IMG/VR virus record: IMGVR_UViG_3300005577_000040
Coordinates: 1-57,347 of that record
Direction: 5' to 3' (one strand)
Length of the DNA stretch: 57,347 nt
Source of the DNA: a virus
Below are positions 1,199 through 34,518 of the stretch, one piece after another (the stretch's first letter is position 1; each line of letters starts with the position of its first letter). A program made the position numbers and the translations under genes. The notes beneath the pieces are model-generated. The model was not told where the DNA came from, did not search any database, and worked only from the letters and a program-made list of their open reading frames with translations.

Positions 1199-1633
1199 TT
1201 AAACGATGGCAGTTAGTACATCTTCTAGAATAATGCCTTGAGTTTTCAAAGCTTCTTTCAGAAGGTTAAACTGTGTTTGGTTGAGAGAACCACCAACATG
1301 GATAGTTTTAGGAAGAGTCTCTTTCAAACGTGCTTGACGGCGAATTGCCAAAACTGGTGTTGCAGTGGTAGCAGCAACTACTAGGGAGTCTTTAAAATCA
1401 TAACGATCGCCAAGGAAAACAGCGTATTCGTTAGTAATCAGAACATCTGATCCATTAACTAAAGGTGCCCAAGCAGCAGTAGGGTCAATACTTTTTACAC
1501 GAAAAAGAATGTGCCCAAAACTAAGGGTTCCACCTGCGTAGTTTACAGTGATCATTTCACGTCCATTGCGAGCTAGGGGCTCCCAAAGAATAAGATCAGA
1601 TGCATATACTTGAGTAATATTTACACTAGCCAT
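1199..1633 (-). CDS. Putative head decoration protein
   Basis: A 144-residue protein between the protease-scaffold gene and the capsid gene. That slot is occupied by gpD-type decoration proteins in lambda-like head operons. The sequence is beta-rich, with a central segment around SFGHILFRVKSIDP, a basic stretch RRQARLKETL and a C-terminal helix. No gpD signature was proven, so the call rests mainly on position and size. It ends 27 nt before the capsid start, and its start follows the protease stop closely, so it is translated from the same message. Confidence 0.6.
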   Translation of the reverse strand: MASVNITQVYASDLILWEPLARNGREMITVNYAGGTLSFGHILFRVKSIDPTAAWAPLVNGSDVLITNEYAVFLGDRYDFKDSLVVAATTATPVLAIRRQARLKETLPKTIHVGGSLNQTQFNLLKEALKTQGIILEDVLTAIV

Positions 1634-1635
1634 TA

Positions 1636-3000
1636 TTATTTTTTACCTTTGTTATTGTATCTTTGTTCTAAGAATTTTTCTGTAGCAGCGTCAACTGCAA
1701 CACGGTTTTTACTAACTGTATCTAAAGAAGCAGTATCCATTTCTTCATCGGACAAATTTTCTTGTCCTTCTTCACCTACTTCTTCAAATTTTTCTTCTGC
1801 TTCACTTCTAGAAAGCTTAAGAATATTTACAGTAGATTGAAAATCTGCATCACTTAGATTTGCCAATGACACAGAAAGAGTTTCTGCTTGAGCAGTACCA
1901 ACAGCAGCAACCAATTCAGCTTTACGACCTGCGGTTTTAAGTGCAGCTTTCTCATCACTAATTGCTTTAAGTTGTGCTAAGGCATTAGCCAACTCTTCAT
2001 TTTTTCCTGCAAGAACTGTTTCAGAATTCAATTTGAATTGAGTGAATTCTGTTTGTAATGCAGATAAGGAAGCTTCTAGCTCTTCCATATTTAGCTTAGA
2101 CATTTCTTTGTCCTTTGTTTTGGTTTTGAAAAGATTTGAAATTGGATTATCCATTTCGTCTCCAAGGGTTATTTCTTCCAAGTAAGATTTAAATTCTTCT
2201 AGGGTCATTATTTTATCTACTAGACCATTAGCTTGTGCCTTCTGAGAAGAGAAAGTTCTTGCACCAAGTGCAACAACATCTTTCTTATCAACACCACGCC
2301 ACATAGCGACATGATCTGTAAATTGATCGTACATCTCAAGCACGGATGCCTGTATGTCATCTAAAAACTCTTGAGTGAATTTTCCCTCAGAGTCAAAAGG
2401 AACTTTGCCATCACCTGCCGTAACATAGATGTCTTCAATTCCTAATTTTTTCATGTACCCGTTCATGTTTCTCAACTGAACACGTACACCTATACTTCCT
2501 GCTTCTGCTGAAGGATTTGAAATCACTTCATGCATTACTGCTGTGTAACAATAAGAAGCAGAGTAAGAACAAGCAGAAATGTAACCAATTAATTTAACGT
2601 CATTCTCATCAGCAAGATCTCTTATATAGTTTGCTGACTCGAAAGCCATATGAGCACTACCACCACAACTGTCTTGATCAAAGACAATGGTTTTAGCACC
2701 CATATCAATAAGTTGTTTTACTTCTTCGCGAATAAGTTGGTGGCTTACGCCTTCTTCACCGCACATGCCGTAATATGGGATATCTGTAATACCACCATGT
2801 ATATCTACAATCCCAAGCTTTTGGTCTGGTATGTAATTAAGGCTTCTTTGTTTTGGTTTAATTGTTTCTGAAACTGCAAGCTCAGTAGTACCTAAATTTC
2901 TTTCCTGTACGATTTGCATAACCTTTTCAAGATAAGGCTCTGAAACCATGAGAGGGGTATTACATAGTTTTGTAGTAAGTCTTAATAGCTCATGACTCAT
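1636..3000 (-). CDS. S49-family prohead protease with C-terminal scaffold
   Basis: Head maturation protease fused to a scaffolding tail, as in lambda gpC/Nu3. Residues 60-280 form a ClpP/SppA-like S49 domain. DQDSCGGSAHMAFE near residue 108 and ISACSYSASYCY near 141-152 hold the probable serine nucleophile, about Ser147. Residues from about 290 are charged and helical, with a coiled coil (MEELEASLSALQTEFTQFKL) and an acidic C-terminus typical of scaffolds. Two in-frame internal ATGs at 2154 and 2103 follow GGAG and AGGA. Either could give a free scaffold of 172 or 155 residues. The gene sits between portal and decoration genes. Confidence 0.88.
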   Translation of the reverse strand: MSHELLRLTTKLCNTPLMVSEPYLEKVMQIVQERNLGTTELAVSETIKPKQRSLNYIPDQKLGIVDIHGGITDIPYYGMCGEEGVSHQLIREEVKQLIDMGAKTIVFDQDSCGGSAHMAFESANYIRDLADENDVKLIGYISACSYSASYCYTAVMHEVISNPSAEAGSIGVRVQLRNMNGYMKKLGIEDIYVTAGDGKVPFDSEGKFTQEFLDDIQASVLEMYDQFTDHVAMWRGVDKKDVVALGARTFSSQKAQANGLVDKIMTLEEFKSYLEEITLGDEMDNPISNLFKTKTKDKEMSKLNMEELEASLSALQTEFTQFKLNSETVLAGKNEELANALAQLKAISDEKAALKTAGRKAELVAAVGTAQAETLSVSLANLSDADFQSTVNILKLSRSEAEEKFEEVGEEGQENLSDEEMDTASLDTVSKNRVAVDAATEKFLEQRYNNKGKK

Positions 3001-6770: not shown

Positions 6771-6848
6771 TGGTACTCTATCGGGGAGTCGAACCCCGTT
6801 TGACAGGTTGAAAACCTGTAGTCCTAACCAAACGTAGACGAATAGAGC
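6771..6848 (-). tRNA. tRNA-Glu (UUC)
   Basis: Acceptor GCTCTAT/ATAGAGT, A73 and encoded CCA. Anticodon stem ACAGG/CCTGT with loop TTTTCAA gives UUC. The D-arm (GTC...GGAC) is Glu-like and the T-loop is TTCGACT. It is the last tRNA of the minus-strand cluster. Confidence 0.93.
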
Positions 6849-6858
6849 ATTTTAAAAA

Positions 6859-6933
6859 TGGTGGTAACAATTGGTATCGAACCAATCTATCAAGCTCTTC
6901 AGGCTTGCGCTAATCCATCTCAGCTATATTACC
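6859..6933 (-). tRNA. tRNA-Phe (GAA)
   Basis: Acceptor GGTAATA/TGTTACC with one wobble, A73 and CCA. Anticodon arm CAAGC-CTGAAGA-GCTTG. The T-loop is TTCGATA. Complete cloverleaf. Confidence 0.93.
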
Positions 6934-6939
6934 ATAATA

Positions 6940-7013
6940 TGGTGCTCAATGTGTGAATCGAACACACGACAGATGCTTACAAGGCAACTGTTATACCACT
7001 TAACTAATCGAGC
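6940..7013 (-). tRNA. tRNA-Thr (UGU)
   Basis: Acceptor GCTCGAT/ATTGAGC with one G-T pair, A73 and CCA. Anticodon loop CTTGTAA gives UGU. The anticodon stem has one T-T mismatch (GTTGC/GCATC). Confidence 0.88.
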
Positions 7014-7015
7014 AT

Positions 7016-7091
7016 TGGCAACCCGTACTGGATTCGAACCAGTAACACCTAGATTCAAAGTCTAGTGCTCTACCAATTGAGCTAACAGGCT
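7016..7091 (-). tRNA. tRNA-Gln (UUG)
   Basis: Acceptor AGCCTGT/ACGGGTT with two wobbles, G73 and CCA. Anticodon arm CTAGA-CTTTGAA-TCTAG gives UUG. D-arm and T-arm are canonical. Confidence 0.92.
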
Positions 7092-7100
7092 GATTAAACT

Positions 7101-7176
7101 TGGTGTGACGTGTGATAATCGAAATCACATACTCCAGAGTCACATTCTGGATCTTTTCCGCTTAAGATAACGTCAC
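7101..7176 (-). tRNA. tRNA-His (GUG) with A73
   Basis: Acceptor GTGACGT/ACGTCAC is perfect and is followed by A73 and CCA. Anticodon arm CCAGA-ATGTGAC-TCTGG gives GUG. Bacterial tRNA-His normally has C73 paired with an encoded G-1. Here the encoded base at -1 is G but faces A73, the arrangement on which eukaryotic Thg1 acts. The window encodes a Thg1 homologue at 46475-47176. Confidence 0.92.
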
Positions 7177-7183
7177 CACTGTT

Positions 7184-7258
7184 TGGTGGAACTGGTTGGA
7201 TTTGAACCAACATAAGTCGGCTTAAAAGGCCGATGATCTACCTGTGATCCACAATTCC
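7184..7258 (-). tRNA. tRNA-Lys (UUU)
   Basis: Acceptor GGAATTG/CAGTTCC, A73 and CCA. Anticodon arm TCGGC-CTTTTAA-GCCGA gives UUU. D-stem is GATC/GATC. Confidence 0.93.
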
Positions 7259-7265
7259 TTTAATT

Positions 7266-7339
7266 TGGCAGACCGTGTAAGAATCGAACTCACATCTCAT
7301 GGTTTGGAGCCACGCATTCTACCACTAAACTAACGATCT
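7266..7339 (-). tRNA. tRNA-Trp (CCA)
   Basis: Acceptor AGATCGT/ACGGTCT, G73 and CCA. Anticodon arm CGTGG-CTCCAAA-CCATG gives CCA, reading UGG. G73 fits bacterial Trp identity. Confidence 0.92.
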
Positions 7340-7346
7340 AAAAATT

Positions 7347-7422
7347 TGGTACTTCTTGCTGGATTCGAACCAACCCCACAGAGTTCGTAGCTCTATATTC
7401 TATCCCAATAAACTAAAGAAGT
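7347..7422 (-). tRNA. tRNA-Arg (ACG)
   Basis: Acceptor ACTTCTT/AAGAAGT is perfect, with A73 and CCA. Anticodon loop CTACGAA gives ACG. A34 would need conversion to inosine by host TadA to read CGU, CGC and CGA. Confidence 0.9.
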
Positions 7423-7423
7423 A

Positions 7424-7497
7424 TGGTACTCAGTGCTGGTAACGATCCAGCGTTTAACGCTTATCAAGCGTTTGTTCTACCATTGAACTAACCGAGT
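7424..7497 (-). tRNA. tRNA-Ile (GAU)
   Basis: Acceptor ACTCGGT/ACTGAGT, A73 and CCA. Anticodon arm AACGC-TTGATAA-GCGTT gives GAU. It starts one base after the 3' end of tRNA-Arg, so processing must resolve a 1-nt spacer. Confidence 0.92.
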
Positions 7498-7509
7498 ATA
7501 ATATTCATA

Positions 7510-7597
7510 TGGCGGAAAACAGAGAGCACGATTCTCATACGCTAGCACGTACAGACCGCTTAGCAGGCGGCTCCAGAACCCATCTGGTTTATTTTCC
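7510..7597 (-). tRNA. tRNA-Ser (GCU)
   Basis: Class II tRNA of 88 nt with a long variable arm (TACG...CGTA). Acceptor GGAAAAT/GTTTTCC, G73 and CCA. Anticodon loop CTGCTAA gives GCU. The T-loop is ATCGTGC rather than TTCGAAT, and the T-stem is only four clear pairs. Confidence 0.85.
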
Positions 7598-7601
7598 ATA
7601 T

Positions 7602-7678
7602 TGGTACGAAAGGTGGGACTTGAACCCACAAAACCTAGTTTCTAAGACTAGTATGTATGCCTATTCCATCACTCTCGC
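7602..7678 (-). tRNA. tRNA-Leu (UAG), short variable loop
   Basis: Acceptor GCGAGAG/CTTTCGT, A73 and CCA. Anticodon arm CTAGT-CTTAGAA-ACTAG gives UAG, reading CUA. The variable region is only five bases (GTTTT), whereas bacterial Leu tRNAs are normally class II with a long variable arm. Either it is charged through other elements, or the anticodon misleads about its identity. Confidence 0.82.
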
Positions 7679-7686
7679 ATTTAAAT

Positions 7687-7762
7687 TGGCGCCACTTATG
7701 GGTTTCGATCCCATTACCTTACCCTTGACAGGGGTACGCTCTCCCAATTGAGCTAAAGCGGC
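7687..7762 (-). tRNA. tRNA-Asp (GUC)
   Basis: Acceptor GCCGCTT/AAGTGGC with one wobble, G73 and CCA. Anticodon arm TACCC-CTGTCAA-GGGTA gives GUC. The T-loop begins with A (ATCGAAA). G73 fits Asp identity. Confidence 0.9.
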
Positions 7763-7768
7763 TTAAAC

Positions 7769-7852
7769 TGGTGCGCAGGGGCGGAATTTGCACCACCACA
7801 TCTCTCGAAGCTGATTTACAGTCAGGTGAGTTCACTCGTACTCAGCCTACGC
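7769..7852 (-). tRNA. tRNA-Tyr (GUA)
   Basis: Class II tRNA of 84 nt. Acceptor GCGTAGG/CCTGCGC with one wobble, A73 and CCA. Anticodon loop CTGTAAA between CTGA and TCAG gives GUA. A long variable arm follows, as expected for bacterial Tyr. Confidence 0.9.
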
Positions 7853-7861
7853 ATTTAACTA

Positions 7862-7949
7862 TGGCGGAAAATAAAGGAGTCGAACCCTCAGCGCTCATCA
7901 CACTGGCTACGGTTTTCAAGACCGTTTGTGGCCACCCACGCTATCTTCC
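7862..7949 (-). tRNA. tRNA-Ser (UGA)
   Basis: Class II tRNA of 88 nt. Acceptor GGAAGAT/ATTTTCC, G73 and CCA. Anticodon arm ACGGT-CTTGAAA-ACCGT gives UGA. The variable arm is long. Confidence 0.9.
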
Positions 7950-7954
7950 TAAAT

Positions 7955-8030
7955 TGGTGGAATAGGTGAGAATCGAACTCACCACAGGAAAGGTGCAAAC
8001 CTCCCTCGCCCCCTTGGCACATGCTACCCC
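7955..8030 (-). tRNA. tRNA-Ala (UGC)
   Basis: Acceptor GGGGTAG/CTATTCC contains the G3-U70 wobble that defines alanine identity, then A73 and CCA. Anticodon loop TTTGCAC is the same as in E. coli tRNA-Ala(UGC). The D-arm is atypical and could not be folded in the usual register. Confidence 0.82.
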
Positions 8031-8041
8031 ATAACTATAAT

Positions 8042-8116
8042 TGGTAGCGGGAACCAGATTCGAACTGGTGATTTTCAGCTTATGAGACTGACGAGTTACC
8101 GCTTCTCTATCCCGCT
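8042..8116 (-). tRNA. tRNA with CAU anticodon (elongator Met or Ile2)
   Basis: Acceptor AGCGGGA/TCCCGCT is perfect, with A73 and CCA. Anticodon arm TCAGT-CTCATAA-GCTGA gives CAU. A paired 1-72 and no GGG/CCC in the anticodon stem argue against an initiator. Whether it is Met or lysidine-modified Ile2 cannot be told by eye. Confidence 0.85.
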
Positions 8117-8209
8117 ATTAATCCTGTGACTCTTTATAACCATTCATGGATTGGTAACTCCGAAGAGCTGGTCGTAACCCTTACAACTGGTCAAAGTTAC
8201 TTTTAAATA
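8117..8209 (-). other. Structured spacer in the tRNA cluster
   Basis: No canonical tRNA fits. On the minus strand an outer stem (GTAACT/AGTTAC) encloses a 7-bp hairpin GTTGTAA-GGG-TTACGAC and a short CTC-TTCG-GAG hairpin with a UUCG tetraloop. This is the largest tRNA-free spacer in the block other than the zinc-ribbon gene. Confidence 0.4.
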
Positions 8210-8287
8210 TGGCTGATCACCTTGGAATCGAACCAAGCTCCATTCTGATTAACAGTCAGATGCTCACACCATGCTTGCTCGTGATCA
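8210..8287 (-). tRNA. tRNA-Asn (GUU)
   Basis: Acceptor TGATCAC/GTGATCA is perfect, with G73 and CCA. Anticodon arm TCTGA-CTGTTAA-TCAGA gives GUU. The D-arm has a large loop. Confidence 0.9.
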
Positions 8288-8294
8288 ATAAATT

Positions 8295-8369
8295 TGGTCT
8301 ATCCTGTAGGACTCGAACCTACGACTTCTCCGTTCCAAACAGAGCGACTTGCCTCTAGCCTAAAGATAG
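8295..8369 (-). tRNA. tRNA-Pro (UGG)
   Basis: Acceptor CTATCTT/AGGATAG with C1-G72, as in Pro, then A73 and CCA. Anticodon arm CTCTG-TTTGGAA-CGGAG gives UGG. It is the first tRNA downstream of the promoter at 8405-8433. Confidence 0.92.
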
Positions 8370-8404
8370 AAATGAATATCATATAATATTCGCTGTACAT
8401 TCTA

Positions 8405-8433
8405 ATTATACTATCAATTTTAACTATTGTAAA
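8405..8433 (-). promoter_or_regulatory. Sigma70-type promoter for the tRNA cluster
   Basis: On the minus strand TTTACA (8433-8428) is followed by a 17-bp spacer and TATAAT (8410-8405), close to consensus. Transcription would start near 8398 and run through tRNA-Pro to tRNA-Glu and possibly into the terminase genes. Confidence 0.8.
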
Positions 8434-8454
8434 GTTATTTTTTGATAAATATAA

Positions 8455-8646
8455 TCAATCATCAAAATTTGTTGGTTGTTTTACACCTTCTACAGCATAC
8501 TGTAGAATATATTCTTTCTCTTCTGGGATATTTATTGTATAAACTACCCCACGACATTCATGACAAAAATCCTCAGGAGTTCCATCATCTTTCTTCATTC
8601 TTAAATCAGACCACGATAGGGCCGAATCACAGCACCGACATCTCAT
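8455..8646 (-). CDS. Small zinc-ribbon protein
   Basis: A 63-residue protein set inside the tRNA cluster. It has two CxxC pairs, CRCC near residue 3 and CHEC near 28, spaced as in a zinc ribbon. The C-terminal half is acidic. Similar short phage proteins exist, but their function is not known to me. The ribosome site is weak. Confidence 0.7.
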   Translation of the reverse strand: MRCRCCDSALSWSDLRMKKDDGTPEDFCHECRGVVYTINIPEEKEYILQYAVEGVKQPTNFDD

Positions 8647-8681
8647 AACACACTCAGTCTAGCTTATGCTAGATTTATTAT

Positions 8682-8757
8682 TGGGGCAAGTAAAAGGGTT
8701 CGAACCTTTATCTGGAACCAGATTGCTCCCGTCCTCTCCAAATTAGACGATACTTGC
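8682..8757 (-). tRNA. tRNA of undetermined isotype, aberrant anticodon arm
   Basis: Acceptor GCAAGTA/TACTTGC is perfect, T-arm AAAGG-TTCGAAC-CCTTT and D-stem GTCT/GGAC are canonical, and CCA is encoded. The discriminator is C73. The anticodon stem folds best as GGAGC/GTTCC around a 6-nt loop AATCTG that lacks T33. No standard anticodon can be read with confidence. An Arg-like UCU and a Gly-like UCC register are both possible. Confidence 0.65.
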
Positions 8758-8765
8758 GTAATTCT

Positions 8766-8842
8766 TGGTGGGCCACCCAAGACTTGAACTTGAAACCTTC
8801 GACTTATGAGGTCGCTGCTCTAACCAGTTGAGCTAGAGGCCC
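8766..8842 (-). tRNA. tRNA with CAU anticodon (Ile2 or Met)
   Basis: Acceptor GGGCCTC/GTGGCCC with one T-T mismatch, A73 and CCA. Anticodon arm around CTCATAA gives CAU. D-arm GCTC-AACTGGTTA-GAGC. It is the second CAU tRNA of the cluster, so one of the two may be the lysidine-type Ile2. Confidence 0.85.
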
Positions 8843-8846
8843 TTTC

Positions 8847-8920
8847 TGGAGCCTGTGGTAGGAATCGAACCCACGTAAAAGGATTTGCAATCCCTCGCAT
8901 GGCCACTCTGCCACACAGGC
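8847..8920 (-). tRNA. tRNA-Cys (GCA)
   Basis: Acceptor GCCTGTG/CACAGGC is perfect, with U73 (the Cys identity base) and CCA. Anticodon arm AGGGA-TTGCAAA-TCCTT gives GCA. Confidence 0.92.
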
Positions 8921-8925
8921 TTGTT

Positions 8926-9000
8926 TGGTGCGGGATTGGGGACTCGAACCCCAGACACCGACTTGGAAGGACGGCATGTTACCAACTACACTAATCACGC
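8926..9000 (-). tRNA. tRNA-Gly (UCC)
   Basis: Acceptor GCGTGAT/ATCCCGC with one mismatch, A73 and CCA. Anticodon loop CTTCCAA gives UCC, with one T-T mismatch in the stem CCGTC/GTCGG. T-arm CTGGGG-type stem with TTCGAGT loop. Confidence 0.87.
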
Positions 9001-9138: not shown

Positions 9139-9313
9139 CTAACATCCCTTTCAATACATCTACACCAATACCGGTCAGGGTAGAAATTGTGTATAACTCC
9201 AACCCATCATTAATCAACTGAGTTAGTTGCTCTTTTGTAATGTCCTCCCCAGAAATCAGGGAGTCTCCAATACTAAGAGCATTACTAATTGATTTTGTAA
9301 AAAGATCAAACAT
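9131..9313 (-). CDS. Hypothetical protein coupled to the TROVE gene
   Basis: 60 residues, helical and acidic, with no recognised family. Its ATG overlaps the TROVE stop (TAATG), so it is probably translated together with the Ro60 homologue and may work with it. That link is inferred from the overlap only. Confidence 0.6.
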   Translation of the reverse strand: MFDLFTKSISNALSIGDSLISGEDITKEQLTQLINDGLELYTISTLTGIGVDVLKGMLDE

Positions 9314-10728
9314 TATAATGCATACCTCTCAATCATCACTGTTTCCAACATAACTTCTTCAGGATTAGAGGCTTTGCCTAAAACACTCTTCATGATAGAA
9401 GGACTATAACCACTCACCATTGCTGTTCCTGTTTCGTGTTTGGTCACAGGCTTACTGGTGTTAGCCGCATTAAGATTCCAAAACACAATTTTAGGAATTT
9501 GATAGCCAGCAGCTTCAAATTCTTTCTTCATCATGTCAAAAGCAGTCACAGACTTTCCTTCAACATTACTGCAATTAAACTGCATATCACTCAAAATAAC
9601 TAAAGTGGTAGGCATTTGTGAAGGATCTAAATTAACATCCTTTGCTGCATCTAGAATCAATTTAAAAGCAGCTTGAATATTAGTACTTCCACCCCAAGGG
9701 GCTTTAGATATTAAATCAAATCTTTGTTTTAAAGATCCTGCATCTATTTTTAATAGCCTTGGGCTAGACTCAAAGGTCATAAACACATCTTTAAAAATAC
9801 CCTCTGAACGACTAGCTATGTACCAACCAAGAGATATTGCAACATCAACACATTGTAAATATCGATCGCCACCAGCAGATTTATACATACTCCGAGAAAC
9901 ATCAATCAGTGGAAGAATACGTTCTTCACTACCTTCCATATAATTAGGAAGGGCATTCCACTGTTGTTCTGCTATCTCAGCATTACCTTGATAGACAGAC
10001 TTATAAATGTCATGTGGGTATACGGCAGAAGCATGGATAGTAGTTTCACCTTTCTTAAGTGATTCCAAGTATTTACCATAACGTTCTGTGGCATTACGCC
10101 CAAAAGCTTTCTGATAGCGTGCAGAAGCAACAGAAGGGACCTTGTTAAACTCTATAGTATCCCATTCTTTTGCACACATACTCTGTTCAACAGTCTTACG
10201 ACCTGCAACAATGTACTTACGCCAATCGGCCTCTTTCTTGAAACCCAGCATCTTACGAACTTTCTTTGCTGTATTGCCTTTAATAGGCACCCATTTAAAG
10301 GCCAAACCATTGCCTTCTTGTAATTCTGTTTTATAAATGTGACTTGCAAAATCACTCATCTGAGGAATATTCTCAGATACCCACAAAAGGTCATCAAAAC
10401 GACCAATTTCAGGGATTTTGGTGAGCAGGGTATTCAACGCTTGAATTACCTCAGCTTTACCTGCATTAGCATATGCAAATTTAAGTAGATTACGGAACAG
10501 TTGACGTTCCCCAGCTCCACCCCTAACATCACGTAACCACTGTAAGATACGCAATGCAACATCTTGATTCTCAATCAAGGCGTCTAAAAATTCTTTCTCG
10601 ATATTCTTCCCACGGCTAGCACCAGCCAAGTAGAATAGATCTAAGCATTTGGACAGGCTCGAAAAATGCGCCTTTGCCCCATTATCGGTTTTTGCTTGTG
10701 CATTAACCGCTTCAAATAATGACATCAT
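9313..10728 (-). CDS. TROVE-domain Ro60 homologue (Rsr-like)
   Basis: RNA-binding ring protein that holds Y RNAs and misfolded or degraded RNAs. About residues 10-275 form the HEAT-like TROVE part (LSKCLDLFYLAGASRGKN, LRDVRGGAGERQLFRNL). The C-terminal part is a vWA domain with MIDAS-like PLIDVSRSM near 278 and VILSDMQF near 380. At 471 residues it is slightly shorter than bacterial Rsr. I choose the ATG at 10728, which follows AAGGAG at 6 nt. A start at 10758 would run into the last Y-RNA-like element. Four such elements lie directly upstream on the same strand and probably share its promoter. Confidence 0.88.
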   Translation of the reverse strand: MMSLFEAVNAQAKTDNGAKAHFSSLSKCLDLFYLAGASRGKNIEKEFLDALIENQDVALRILQWLRDVRGGAGERQLFRNLLKFAYANAGKAEVIQALNTLLTKIPEIGRFDDLLWVSENIPQMSDFASHIYKTELQEGNGLAFKWVPIKGNTAKKVRKMLGFKKEADWRKYIVAGRKTVEQSMCAKEWDTIEFNKVPSVASARYQKAFGRNATERYGKYLESLKKGETTIHASAVYPHDIYKSVYQGNAEIAEQQWNALPNYMEGSEERILPLIDVSRSMYKSAGGDRYLQCVDVAISLGWYIASRSEGIFKDVFMTFESSPRLLKIDAGSLKQRFDLISKAPWGGSTNIQAAFKLILDAAKDVNLDPSQMPTTLVILSDMQFNCSNVEGKSVTAFDMMKKEFEAAGYQIPKIVFWNLNAANTSKPVTKHETGTAMVSGYSPSIMKSVLGKASNPEEVMLETVMIERYAL

Positions 10729-10750
10729 AATAAACTCCTTAATAATTGAC

Positions 10751-10827
10751 AGAATCACTTGTTTGTGATGAGATCACAGTACTGACAGCCGTGTACGGCT
10801 ATAATTTTTGGTTGCTGAACTGATTCT
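10751..10827 (-). ncRNA. Y-RNA-like element 4
   Basis: Basal stem AGAATCA/TGATTCT, then on the 5' strand the motif GTTCAGCAACC shared by all four elements. Inside are hairpins AGCCG-TACA-CGGCT and GTGAT-CTC-ATCAC. It ends 22 nt before the TROVE start codon. Confidence 0.6.
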
Positions 10828-11585: not shown

Positions 11586-11756
11586 CTATATAGTGTATTT
11601 TGGCACTGGAATAGGCTTAGTGTAGTTGGGTGTATATATTTTGTCAACAGAATACTCTTTAAAAGAACGAAATCTTGAAGGTACAGGACAATTAAAAGTG
11701 ACGGCCAAATGTAAATTCTTACTCTTATTACAATTCTTACATAAATACTGTTCCAT
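11586..11756 (-). CDS. Small CxxC protein
   Basis: 56 residues. It starts MEQYLCKNCNK with a CxxC pair, and a third Cys near residue 23 could complete a partial zinc site. The C-terminus is rich in Pro, Tyr and Lys. ATG preceded by TTAGGAG. It is the first gene downstream of the structured RNA at 11774-12176, whose 3' end lies only about 18 nt away. Confidence 0.65.
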   Translation of the reverse strand: MEQYLCKNCNKSKNLHLAVTFNCPVPSRFRSFKEYSVDKIYTPNYTKPIPVPKYTI

Positions 11757-11773: not shown

Positions 11774-11877
11774 AATTCAATTAGGCTGGTGGATAAATTC
11801 TGGATAATACTAACCCATAGCCATACCATAATAGTATTAGCCATTAGGTTAGTATCCTCAGAATTCAATTAGGCTGG
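11774..11877. repeat. Direct repeat flanking the 3' domain of RNA copy 1
   Basis: The 16-bp sequence AATTCAATTAGGCTGG occurs at 11774-11789 and again, identical, at 11862-11877. On the transcribed minus strand each copy starts with CCA. The segment between forms a long hairpin. Confidence 0.85.
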
Positions 11878-12176
11878 AGCCATAAGATTCTCTGCGCTAC
11901 AGGCAGCATACTATAACTAGTACGGGATAATGTAAAGTGATTTATATCTTTACATCACAAGGGGCTTCCTCTATAATCAGAGTCCATGCTACTCCCCCTT
12001 AAGCCATTTTATAATGGCCACTAACAAGTATTGTGTCTTGCATCTTCTTACACTTTAGGATTAGCCGGTGAGTGATGCGTTAAGCTTGACATATCTCTCT
12101 AATCCGTAGGACCTGATTCTCAGGAACAATAGGTGTAATGTCTTTACGTTAGAACACCTAGAAATATTAATCTCTT
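11774..12176 (-). ncRNA. Structured RNA, copy 1 of a two-copy family
   Basis: About 400 nt without a gene. The minus-strand transcript folds into an ordered series of helices: TAGGTGT/ACACCTA, CCTGA-GAA-TCAGG, GGATTAG/CTAATCC, GCCATT-ATAA-AATGGC, AAGGGG/CCCCTT enclosing CTCT-GATTAT-AGAG then GAAG, ATGTAAAG/CTTTACAT, a pair of small hairpins, GGCTCCA, and a 3' hairpin closed by AATTCTG/CAGAATT. The same order, with different but compensated bases, is found at 33557-33946. I do not recognise it as a known class. It could be a stand-alone RNA or a long leader of the gene at 11756. Confidence 0.75.
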
Positions 12177-12181
12177 TATCC

Positions 12182-12211
12182 ATTATACAGTATTGGACTC
12201 TCAAAAGTCAA
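12182..12211 (-). promoter_or_regulatory. Sigma70-type promoter for RNA copy 1
   Basis: On the minus strand TTGACT (12211-12206), an 18-bp spacer and TATAAT (12187-12182). Predicted start near 12175, matching the 5' edge of the RNA. Confidence 0.82.
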
Positions 12212-31203: not shown

Positions 31204-31279
31204 GCGCTGTTAGTTTAATGGATAGAACAGGGGATTTCTAATCCCTCGGCGGCGGGTTCGACTCCCCCACGGCGTACCA
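31204..31279 (+). tRNA. tRNA-Arg (UCU)
   Basis: The only plus-strand tRNA and the only one outside the cluster. Acceptor GCGCTGT/ACGGCGT with two wobbles, A73 and CCA. Anticodon arm GGGGA-TTTCTAA-TCCCT gives UCU, reading AGA. It lies near the right end of the RepL island. Confidence 0.9.
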
Positions 31280-33543: not shown

Positions 33544-33556
33544 TATGTGCTATACT

Positions 33557-33946
33557 GAATATAGATTAGTCACTTAATGACTAGACTGGTTTATAAACAG
33601 TCTCGGATAGGAGTTTTCTGGGTAAACCTCTTTTGTACTATCTTAAAGTTCATAAAAGGCTCGAACAAACTTGGGGAAGTGGGACAAATGTCTCAGAGGT
33701 GACAAGGCTATGATGCTGACTAAAGCAGAAGCACCTCTCGGAATACAGGATTAGTATTGCTTGTATTCTATTCCGCACTTGAGATACAGTGTGCTACATG
33801 CAATGTAGGGAATTATACGGCTCCATTAGTATAGATTCTGAGAATTCTTCAATGGTTCCTCTAAGGCTAGTTTAATCTGGTATGAGGGGCTATAGCGGAA
33901 GTCTATTCAGAATTTACTCACCATTAGTATAGACTATAATTAATCC
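33557..33946 (+). ncRNA. Structured RNA, copy 2 of a two-copy family
   Basis: Gene-free and rich in perfect helices: TAGTCA/TGACTA, AGACTG/CAGTCT, GATAG/CTATC, GGGAC-AAAT-GTCTC, AGAGGTG/CACCTCT enclosing TGCT-GACTAA-AGCA then GAAG, GAATACA/TGTATTC, GCACT/AGTGTGC, CTACAT-GCA-ATGTAG, GGCTCCA, and a 3' hairpin closed by ATTCTGA/TCAGAAT. Order, loops and linkers match copy 1 at 11774-12176 while stem bases differ and stay paired. An extended -10 (TGCTATACT, 33548-33556) precedes it. It ends about 15 nt before the GTG of an HNH gene. Confidence 0.75.
33823..33933. repeat. Direct repeat flanking the 3' domain of RNA copy 2
   Basis: CCATTAGTATAGA occurs at 33823-33835 and 33921-33933. It has the same position relative to the RNA fold as the different repeat of copy 1. 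Confidence 0.85.
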
Positions 33947-33960
33947 AGTCGGAGGTAAGA

Positions 33961-34518
33961 GTGGCTACGTTAACCCTAAGTCAATTCAGTGATAAGTTAT
34001 TCTCTGGATTCTATGGCAGACCCAAAGATCAATCTCTCATTCATCTAAGAAATAATTTCTTGGTTATGAAGGGTTCTGTTAATAAAAGTAAAGCTGAGTT
34101 AGTTAATAAATATATTGAGTCTTCAATAGAAAAGTCAGAGGATGTTTTGGAAACTAAACAACAAAGCGCCCTAGAAAGCTCAGAATCGGATTTTGATCTA
34201 CTGGTTGCTGGTAAGTTAAGCCAATTAAAATGCTCTGCTGAACGCCGTGGTAAAGAGTTTGATTTGACGTTTAATGTAGTTAAGCGTTTAATGAAGCGGA
34301 AGACTTGTTATTACACAGGGCTTAAATTCCAAGCCTCTCCAAATCTACATCTAACTATTGATCGTGTGGATTGCAATAAAGGTTATGTTATTGGGAATGT
34401 TGTAGCCTGTAGTAATTGGGCTAACCAAATGAAGAATCAATTAATCGAGCAAGAGGGTAGTCCTTTATTAGGTAATCCTAGACTGCTTAAAAGATTTCTT
34501 AATAAATTAGGAGAATAA
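33961..34518 (+). CDS. HNH endonuclease
   Basis: 185 residues, GTG start 5 nt after GGAGG. The last 80 residues hold the nuclease: CYYTGLKF, then HLTIDRVDCNKGYVIGNVV and CSNWANQMKNQL, a clear HNH pattern. The N-terminal 85 residues may recognise DNA. Free-standing HNH enzymes in phages are often homing nucleases. It does not interrupt a recognisable gene, but it sits directly behind structured RNA copy 2. Confidence 0.82.
   Translation: MATLTLSQFSDKLFSGFYGRPKDQSLIHLRNNFLVMKGSVNKSKAELVNKYIESSIEKSEDVLETKQQSALESSESDFDLLVAGKLSQLKCSAERRGKEFDLTFNVVKRLMKRKTCYYTGLKFQASPNLHLTIDRVDCNKGYVIGNVVACSNWANQMKNQLIEQEGSPLLGNPRLLKRFLNKLGE

Follow-up and report, generated by a model that had tools for sequence, protein, structure and literature searches.

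A new family of large pseudoknotted RNAs is carried by tailed phages, as shown by computational comparison of its members. Two copies, termed c1 and c2, occur in the window, which is the whole 57,347-nucleotide stretch of an IMG/VR virus contig that was analyzed. This contig represents a tailed phage whose genes include those for terminase, portal, head protease, major head protein, RNA ligase, NAMPT, primase/helicase, and DNA polymerase, along with 20 tRNA-like genes. A lone tRNA-Arg (TCT) gene at 31204-31279 (+), 2.3 kb upstream of c2, lies apart from the main tRNA cluster.

The initial annotation had reported two gene-free regions with matching stems, and had proposed that they form a structured RNA family, present twice in the phage and altered by compensatory changes, that belongs to no known class. 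The quoted stems can be located in c1 and c2 (Table 1), and the window ORF list includes no open reading frame of at least 60 aa that overlaps either copy. Single-sequence folding is moderately better than for shuffled sequences with both c1 (z -2.84, 0 of 100 shuffles as good) and c2 (z -2.43, 1 of 100). The c1/c2 pair by itself would be weak evidence, but the matter is settled by homologues. These covary strongly, with the pseudoknot included, and thus support the proposed family. Its lack of kinship to known classes also held up in a search of Rfam 15, which gave no match for either copy or for the homologues. No Rfam covariance model, including those for GOLLD and ROOL, matches c1 or c2 even at permissive thresholds. 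Similarly, the element contains no Rfam match to a group I or group II intron catalytic core, and neither ARAGORN nor Rfam detects a tRNA or tmRNA within it.

A covarying core and its distribution

The core is arranged in the order P1 with an invariant internal loop, P2, P3, P4, small hairpins, a first direct repeat (X5), the long hairpin P7, and a second direct repeat (X3). AYGAAGA is located in the P2 loop, the pseudoknot is formed between this loop and that of P3, and GGAATG/GAAG precedes the closing strand of P3. Among 22 relatives, changes on both sides are observed for 20 of the 24 pairs in four helices, one of which is a pseudoknot, and double-change cells number 113 versus 33 in shuffles. 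The covariation score is 0.593 (0.165 when shuffled), a value reached by 0 of 500 shuffles, and the signal is lost when partners are slid by 1-3 columns. Although only sequence was used to make the alignment, the structure was named after reading it, which somewhat favors the true register over the slid ones. In an independent permutation test wherein helices were placed by search windows, none of 20000 permutations equaled the own pairings of the four helices (P1, P2, P3, and the pseudoknot), and three pairings chosen to be wrong scored no better than chance.

Direct blastn searches with c1 and c2 yielded no match among phages. A 3'-end motif common to the copies (CAGAATTTAYYCACCA) led to a third member, L008, on a 94.7 kb virus contig, and also to a second contig of the window's phage (L021) with an identical c1. 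A motif from the 5' hairpin, which c1 and L046 have in common, uncovered L191, and blastn with L191 returned 172 named phage records, comprising 170 from Pseudomonas, 1 from Pectobacterium, and 1 from Pseudoalteromonas. Additional virus contigs were found by using the invariant P1 loop (GAGATATGTC...ACTCACCGG), which c1 matches exactly, as a query, and seven Vibrio phages that carry the RNA were reached via L235 and L248. Other candidates were discarded along the way. Scans with motif patterns derived from two or three copies only returned mostly chance matches, and L132, L148, and most TCTAAC...GACATT matches were judged by inspection to be chance or coding sequence.

The initial annotation had suggested a covariance-model search as a check. 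Model R1, which was built on alignment A2 of 22 relatives and includes neither window copy, matches c1 (E = 1.6e-11), the Vibrio copies (E about 2e-9), and Pyxpy01 (E = 2e-16). When whole records were searched with R1, 24 of 25 gave a match, and two RNA copies were found in all 13 of 13 near-complete Pseudomonas-type genomes of 90-101 kb. For PA10, a third match was obtained, but it is marginal (E = 0.099). The inspected records of PA10, ventosus, and phiPsa374 have no annotation over the matched region, and some other phage records annotate small hypothetical proteins there.

Copy c2 is more divergent. R1 does not confidently find c2 or L008, and the L008 record gives only one marginal match elsewhere. 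In both c2 and L008 the P1 stem is kept, but its internal loop has diverged (GAGTTTTC / CTCTT). Likewise, no clear pseudoknot partner was found in either of these RNAs, whereas c1 has P3/P4 and the pseudoknot complete. The assignment of c2 to the family rests on the 3' half that c1, c2, and L008 share and on their common order of P1, P2, P3, P4, X, P7, and X, with stem bases differing. Judged in this manner from sequence, c1 and c2 are members of one RNA family that lacks an Rfam match.

Table 1. Positions of the two RNA copies, their parts, and nearby features in the window
Feature	Position	Strand	Remarks
c1 leader RNA, terminal X repeat included	11774..12176	-	homologous to c2, L008, L191, and Pseudomonas/Vibrio phage copies
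c1 covariance-model match	12016-12109	-	E = 1.6e-11
c1 promoter: -35 TTGACT (12211-12206), 18 nt, -10 TATAAT (12187-12182)	12182..12211	-	read from sequence
c1 optional 5' hairpin TAGGTG..CACCTA, loop TCTAACGTAAAGACATT	12131..12159	-	common to L191 and L046/L180
c1 P1 GGATTAG/CTAATCC around invariant internal loop GAGATATGTC...ACTCACCGG	12058..12105	-	
c1 P2 hairpin GTGT/ACAC, loop AAGAAGATGCAAG	12033..12053	-	read from sequence; covariation of the equivalent helices in 22-23 relatives
c1 pseudoknot: 5' strand ATGC in P2 loop, partner GCAT	11989-11986 (partner)	-	read from sequence; corresponding helix covaries in relatives
c1 P3 TAAGGGG/CCCCTTG around P4 CTCT/AGAG and GAAG	11958..12001	-	
c1 P5 ATGTAAAG/CTTTACAT	11930..11955	-	
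c1 X5, first direct repeat GCCTAATTGAATT, after GGCTCCA	11862..11874	-	
c1 P7 long hairpin GAATTCTG...CAGAATTT	11795..11866	-	
c1 X3, second GCCTAATTGAATT, after CACCA	11774..11786	-	
tRNA cluster, 19 genes, downstream of c1; then terminase, portal, protease, major head protein	6771..9000	-	
c2 leader RNA	33560..33935	+	alignment with c1 and L008, common architecture
c2 extended -10 candidate TGC-TATACT (TGCTATACT), weak -35	33551..33556	+	read from sequence
c2 P1 GGATAG/CTATCT	33605..33643	+	
c2 P2 GTTC/GAAC	33648..33666	+	
c2 P3 AGAGGTG/CACCTCT around P4 TGCT/AGCA	33695..33738	+	
c2 P5 GAATACA/TGTATTC	33741..33768	+	
c2 X5 ATTAGTATAGA, after GGCTCC	33825..33835	+	
c2 P7 long hairpin, closing stem GATTCTGAG/TCAGAATT	33834..33914	+	
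c2 X3 ATTAGTATAGA, after CTCACC	33923..33933	+	
First gene of c2-headed operon, 185 aa, no function assigned	33961..34518	+	primase/helicase and DNA polymerase further downstream

Promoters, operons, and neighboring genes

Two further proposals of the initial annotation, an RNA of ~400 nt and a separate promoter for each copy, can be retained only in part. A region of ~350-400 nt is indeed structured, but no terminator delimits its 3' end, which in c1 and c2 continues into the downstream ribosome-binding site. The ~350-400 nt constitute the structured part of a leader and are not a proven transcript. Regarding promoters, c1 has a good sigma70 promoter, whereas c2 has merely an extended -10 element.

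Of 37 unique copies, 28 have TTGAC between -43 and -47 relative to the core motif, compared to ~0.045 expected per copy by chance, and a -10 element can be paired with TTGAC in 30. The sequence is positioned at -114 in c1, which has an extra 5' hairpin, and at -76 in L191, which has extra 5' sequence. No upstream TTGAC was found in 7 of the 37 copies (the L223/L232/L233/L235/L244/L248/L249 group). Given this fixed register, the predicted transcript start is normally a few nucleotides before P1. Most copies begin within a few nucleotides of the predicted +1 of a sigma70 promoter, and the PAK_P4 record has an annotated promoter (89135-89162) directly before its copy A (89168).

The RNA is found at the heads of long gene runs. 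In PAK_P4, copy A heads a run of tRNAs that continues past the end of the record into terminase and structural genes, and copy B (29051) heads the replication run. In the window, c1 heads the tRNA, terminase, portal, and capsid run on the minus strand, and c2 heads the plus-strand run that includes primase/helicase and polymerase. Vibrio phage 1.064.O, a temperate phage with Erf, NinB, and NinG genes, carries the RNA between a nin-like region and terminase, with the order strong terminator, RNA, three small genes, and terminase (the record is opened there). This place corresponds to that of pR'/qut in lambda, and neither an N nor a Q protein was recognized among 20 scanned proteins of this phage. 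A very long intrinsic terminator is present immediately upstream of the RNA in Vibrio phages (L254:35370-35490), and another is upstream of the L223 copy.

These arrangements could also reflect an ordinary cis-regulatory leader, such as a riboswitch, an attenuator, or a protein-binding 5' UTR, that controls the translation or transcript stability of the first gene or genes. The RNA always resides 5' of same-strand genes, the next ribosome-binding site is near in c1 and c2, and in L232/L235/L248 the P7 stem finishes in a U-rich segment, as a terminator would. We nevertheless regard this explanation as unlikely. The U-tracts are paired inside the P7 stem, and there is no common regulated gene, as the downstream product can be a zinc-ribbon-like small protein, a helicase, or an unknown 185 aa protein. 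Furthermore, such a leader leaves the identity of the two X repeats, described below, unexplained.

Several neighboring genes merit separate mention. A small cysteine-rich (zinc-ribbon-like) protein is often encoded by the first ORF after the tRNA-side copy (L226, L227, L228, L229, L230, and window 11618-11756 (-)), and the window protein has no Pfam match. In L180, a GIY-YIG-type endonuclease ORF (MUG113/T5orf172; 1477-2010 (+)) directly follows a divergent RNA copy and directly precedes 24 nt (CCAGAATTTACTCACCAAAGGAYAG) left over from the 3' end of another copy, as if an endonuclease cassette had inserted itself at this RNA locus. A homing intron, considered for L046, was rejected, since a GIY-YIG ORF situated after a complete divergent copy and before a remnant of another looks like an endonuclease cassette and not like an intron ORF. 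A truncated ORF directly after X3 of copy B in G011 (L284:431-586 (+)) resembles a GIY-YIG N-terminus (YIGKT), as judged by eye only.

Downstream of c1, at 9313-10758 (-), the window encodes a DUF2828/DUF7788 protein (PHROG 850, 'RNA-binding protein') that we take to be Ro60/TROVE-like. Its gene recalls the pairing of bacterial Y RNA (YrlA) with Ro, and the phage RNA might accordingly be imagined as a Y-RNA partner of this protein. The Ro-like gene, however, is missing from almost all other carriers (the protein is absent in 13 of 14 other RNA-bearing records searched, and the 14th has a marginal partial match), and neither copy matches YrlA. On this basis the Y RNA/Ro reading was rejected, and we consider it extremely improbable.

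The direct repeat X and a possible function

In every copy examined, a direct repeat called X, usually of 8-14 nt, flanks the 3' hairpin P7 on the same strand. This internal repeat had been missed by the initial annotation. With flanks counted, it extends to 16 nt in c1 and 13 nt in c2. Its sequence varies by copy (c1 GCCTAATTGAATT, c2 ATTAGTATAGA, L008 AAAGGACAG, XD2 ATCCGCAGAATACA, phiPsa374 AGCGTCATGAG, Vibrio TAGAGCAGT), and its place and flanks (GGCTCC/CACC or CTC/TCT) recur across all subgroups. The longest X match averages 10.3 nt within a copy versus 4.6 between copies (21 copies; 0 of 20000 permutations), although the within-copy figure is inflated because the X regions were picked by finding the repeat. 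The X5/X3 match is imperfect in L233 and L245.

When both copies of a genome are compared, the X of copy A differs from that of copy B in 11 of 12 genomes, PAK_P4 being the exception, and the mean X match is 9.96 within a copy versus 4.83 across A and B of one genome. This difference argues against a shared trans factor, and the possibility that X is the binding site of a common factor of this type was therefore rejected. Neither the RNA nor the 220 nt downstream of it yielded a convincing conserved anti-X segment (lowest p 0.02 of 12 segments, uncorrected). Also, an exact complement of the PAK_P4 X is absent from the PAK_P4 plus strand; the minus strand has matches.

Given that X is identical within a copy but variable between copies, what is required seems to be that X5 equals X3 in cis. 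As no other partner was found, the template DNA strand at X3 emerges as the natural partner of the X5 RNA, an inference that rests on elimination only. Both X5/X3 differences in L245 (U/C, G/A) would still allow X5 RNA to pair with the X3 template by wobble. The differences in L233 and L256 would not be tolerated by such pairing. We know of no RNA feature that resembles this cis-identical, hypervariable pair, which points to an RNA that recognizes its own gene.

A device formed by nascent RNA on the polymerase would fit these observations, because the predicted +1 is fixed, the RNA is placed at operon heads, two copies correspond to two main transcription units, and X is restricted to cis. The interpretation we tentatively put forward, with well under even confidence, is a cis-acting leader that modifies host RNA polymerase, most likely for read-through of a long downstream operon. 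It is inferred without transcript or function data. The leader would fold during its synthesis and then modify the host RNA polymerase that is transcribing it, with the P1-P4 pseudoknotted core as the putative polymerase-binding part. The modified enzyme might then read through a very long downstream operon in the manner of HK022 put RNA, even though the leader would be a different and much larger RNA than put. X5, presented beside P7, may pair with the template strand of X3, which would be the sole partner that is always in cis and always complementary, and this pairing could act on the transcription complex passing X3. A more speculative proposal, which we consider unlikely, is that X5 is a copy-specific guide to its own template DNA at X3. 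The leader would then be a self-addressed device, working by an R-loop or by hybrid exchange, through which polymerase or an associated RNP is reprogrammed where the replication and late operons begin.

Processive antitermination, possibly put-like, is by analogy the leading guess for this leader. It is unproven, and the use of terminator density as a proxy lends it no support. Operons headed by the RNA show no higher density of terminator-like sites than the remainder (for PAK_P4, 7 sites in 69 kb versus 7 in 30 kb), and the operon-extent heuristic of this test failed for Pyxpy01. In PAK_P4, phiPsa374, ventosus, and the window, no terminator-like site separates the RNA from the first genes.

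The same X logic would apply if the RNA were a replication-origin transcript, in which an R-loop primer arises when X5 hybridizes back onto the X3 template. Several copies are located at divergent points, and the cumulative GC-skew minimum of PAK_P4 (28964, L252) adjoins copy B. Conversely, the minima of phiPsa374, ventosus, and Pyxpy01 are at least 3.5 kb from any copy, and each genome has two copies with different X. GC skew was set aside as a guide to an origin because it is inconsistent among genomes, and an origin transcript seems to us quite improbable.

Comparable doubt applies to a self-cleaving or self-splicing ribozyme, or a homing-associated element, whose core cuts at the identical CCA-X / CTC-X sites and thereby removes P7. 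The similar 5' contexts of X5 and X3 would create a seamless joint after excision, the core is pseudoknotted, and GIY-YIG-type ORFs directly follow the RNA in L180 and L284 (the latter by eye). However, Rfam gives no match to group I, group II, or other ribozymes, an endonuclease does not adjoin most copies, and a simple ribozyme has no need of X hypervariability.

Relation to known systems

Phages of the PAK_P1/PaP1-like and phiPsa374-like groups of Pseudomonas have been widely sequenced, and some are studied for therapy or plant biocontrol. To our knowledge, the switching-on of long late operons in such host-promoter-using phages is not well understood. With a conserved leader present at replication and late operon heads, PAK_P4 and other culturable phages offer a direct way to test this question. 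No earlier description of the element was found in the open literature; subscription papers and preprints were outside the scope of this search.

The RNA resembles GOLLD and ROOL in being large, highly structured, phage-borne, and sometimes near tRNAs, and some large phage RNAs are known to adjoin tRNA clusters. It might therefore be processed from the leader to become a trans-acting or structural noncoding RNA, either a GOLLD/ROOL-like particle or a sponge. Its size and elaborate conserved structure, the frequent proximity of tRNA clusters, and X loops that could mediate contacts are all compatible with such a role. Unlike GOLLD and ROOL, it has no Rfam match, no independent terminator, a cis-leader arrangement, and X repeats, and the different X in the two copies excludes one shared X-mediated contact. 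Moreover, the RNA-seq-annotated PAK_P4 record lists asRNAs and one sRNA at other loci, with none at the leader region, which is not annotated. A trans-acting RNA consequently appears rather unlikely. Related phage groups do produce small RNAs, such as the two sRNAs of ~100 nt and the antisense RNAs detected by RNA-seq of PAK_P3 (PMC4933390). The leader differs from these transcripts of PAK_P3 and PAK_P4, which are ~100 nt (PAK_P3) or antisense at other loci.

The preferred reading, a leader that acts on the polymerase transcribing it, invites comparison with lambdoid antitermination. In lambda, a single N protein reads the boxB of nut, whereas qut acts as DNA. The leader shares its operon-head position with nut and qut, but its X differs between the copies of one phage and so cannot be read by one shared protein. 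In phage HK022, put RNAs made near PL and near PR bind RNA polymerase without a dedicated trans-acting protein, each of the two being ~70 nt with two stem-loops (PMC9378689). As with putL and putR, there are two copies per genome downstream of major operon promoters, and put is a cis-acting nascent RNA (PMC9378689). Neither the put sequence nor its two-stem structure was recognized in the leader, and the size and helix order differ: the leader is 350-400 nt (~five times larger), with a pseudoknotted core, a long 3' hairpin, and X repeats. Unless a prior description exists, which is possible, the RNA class is new; should it prove to be an antiterminator, its function would be a variant, itself new, within a known kind.
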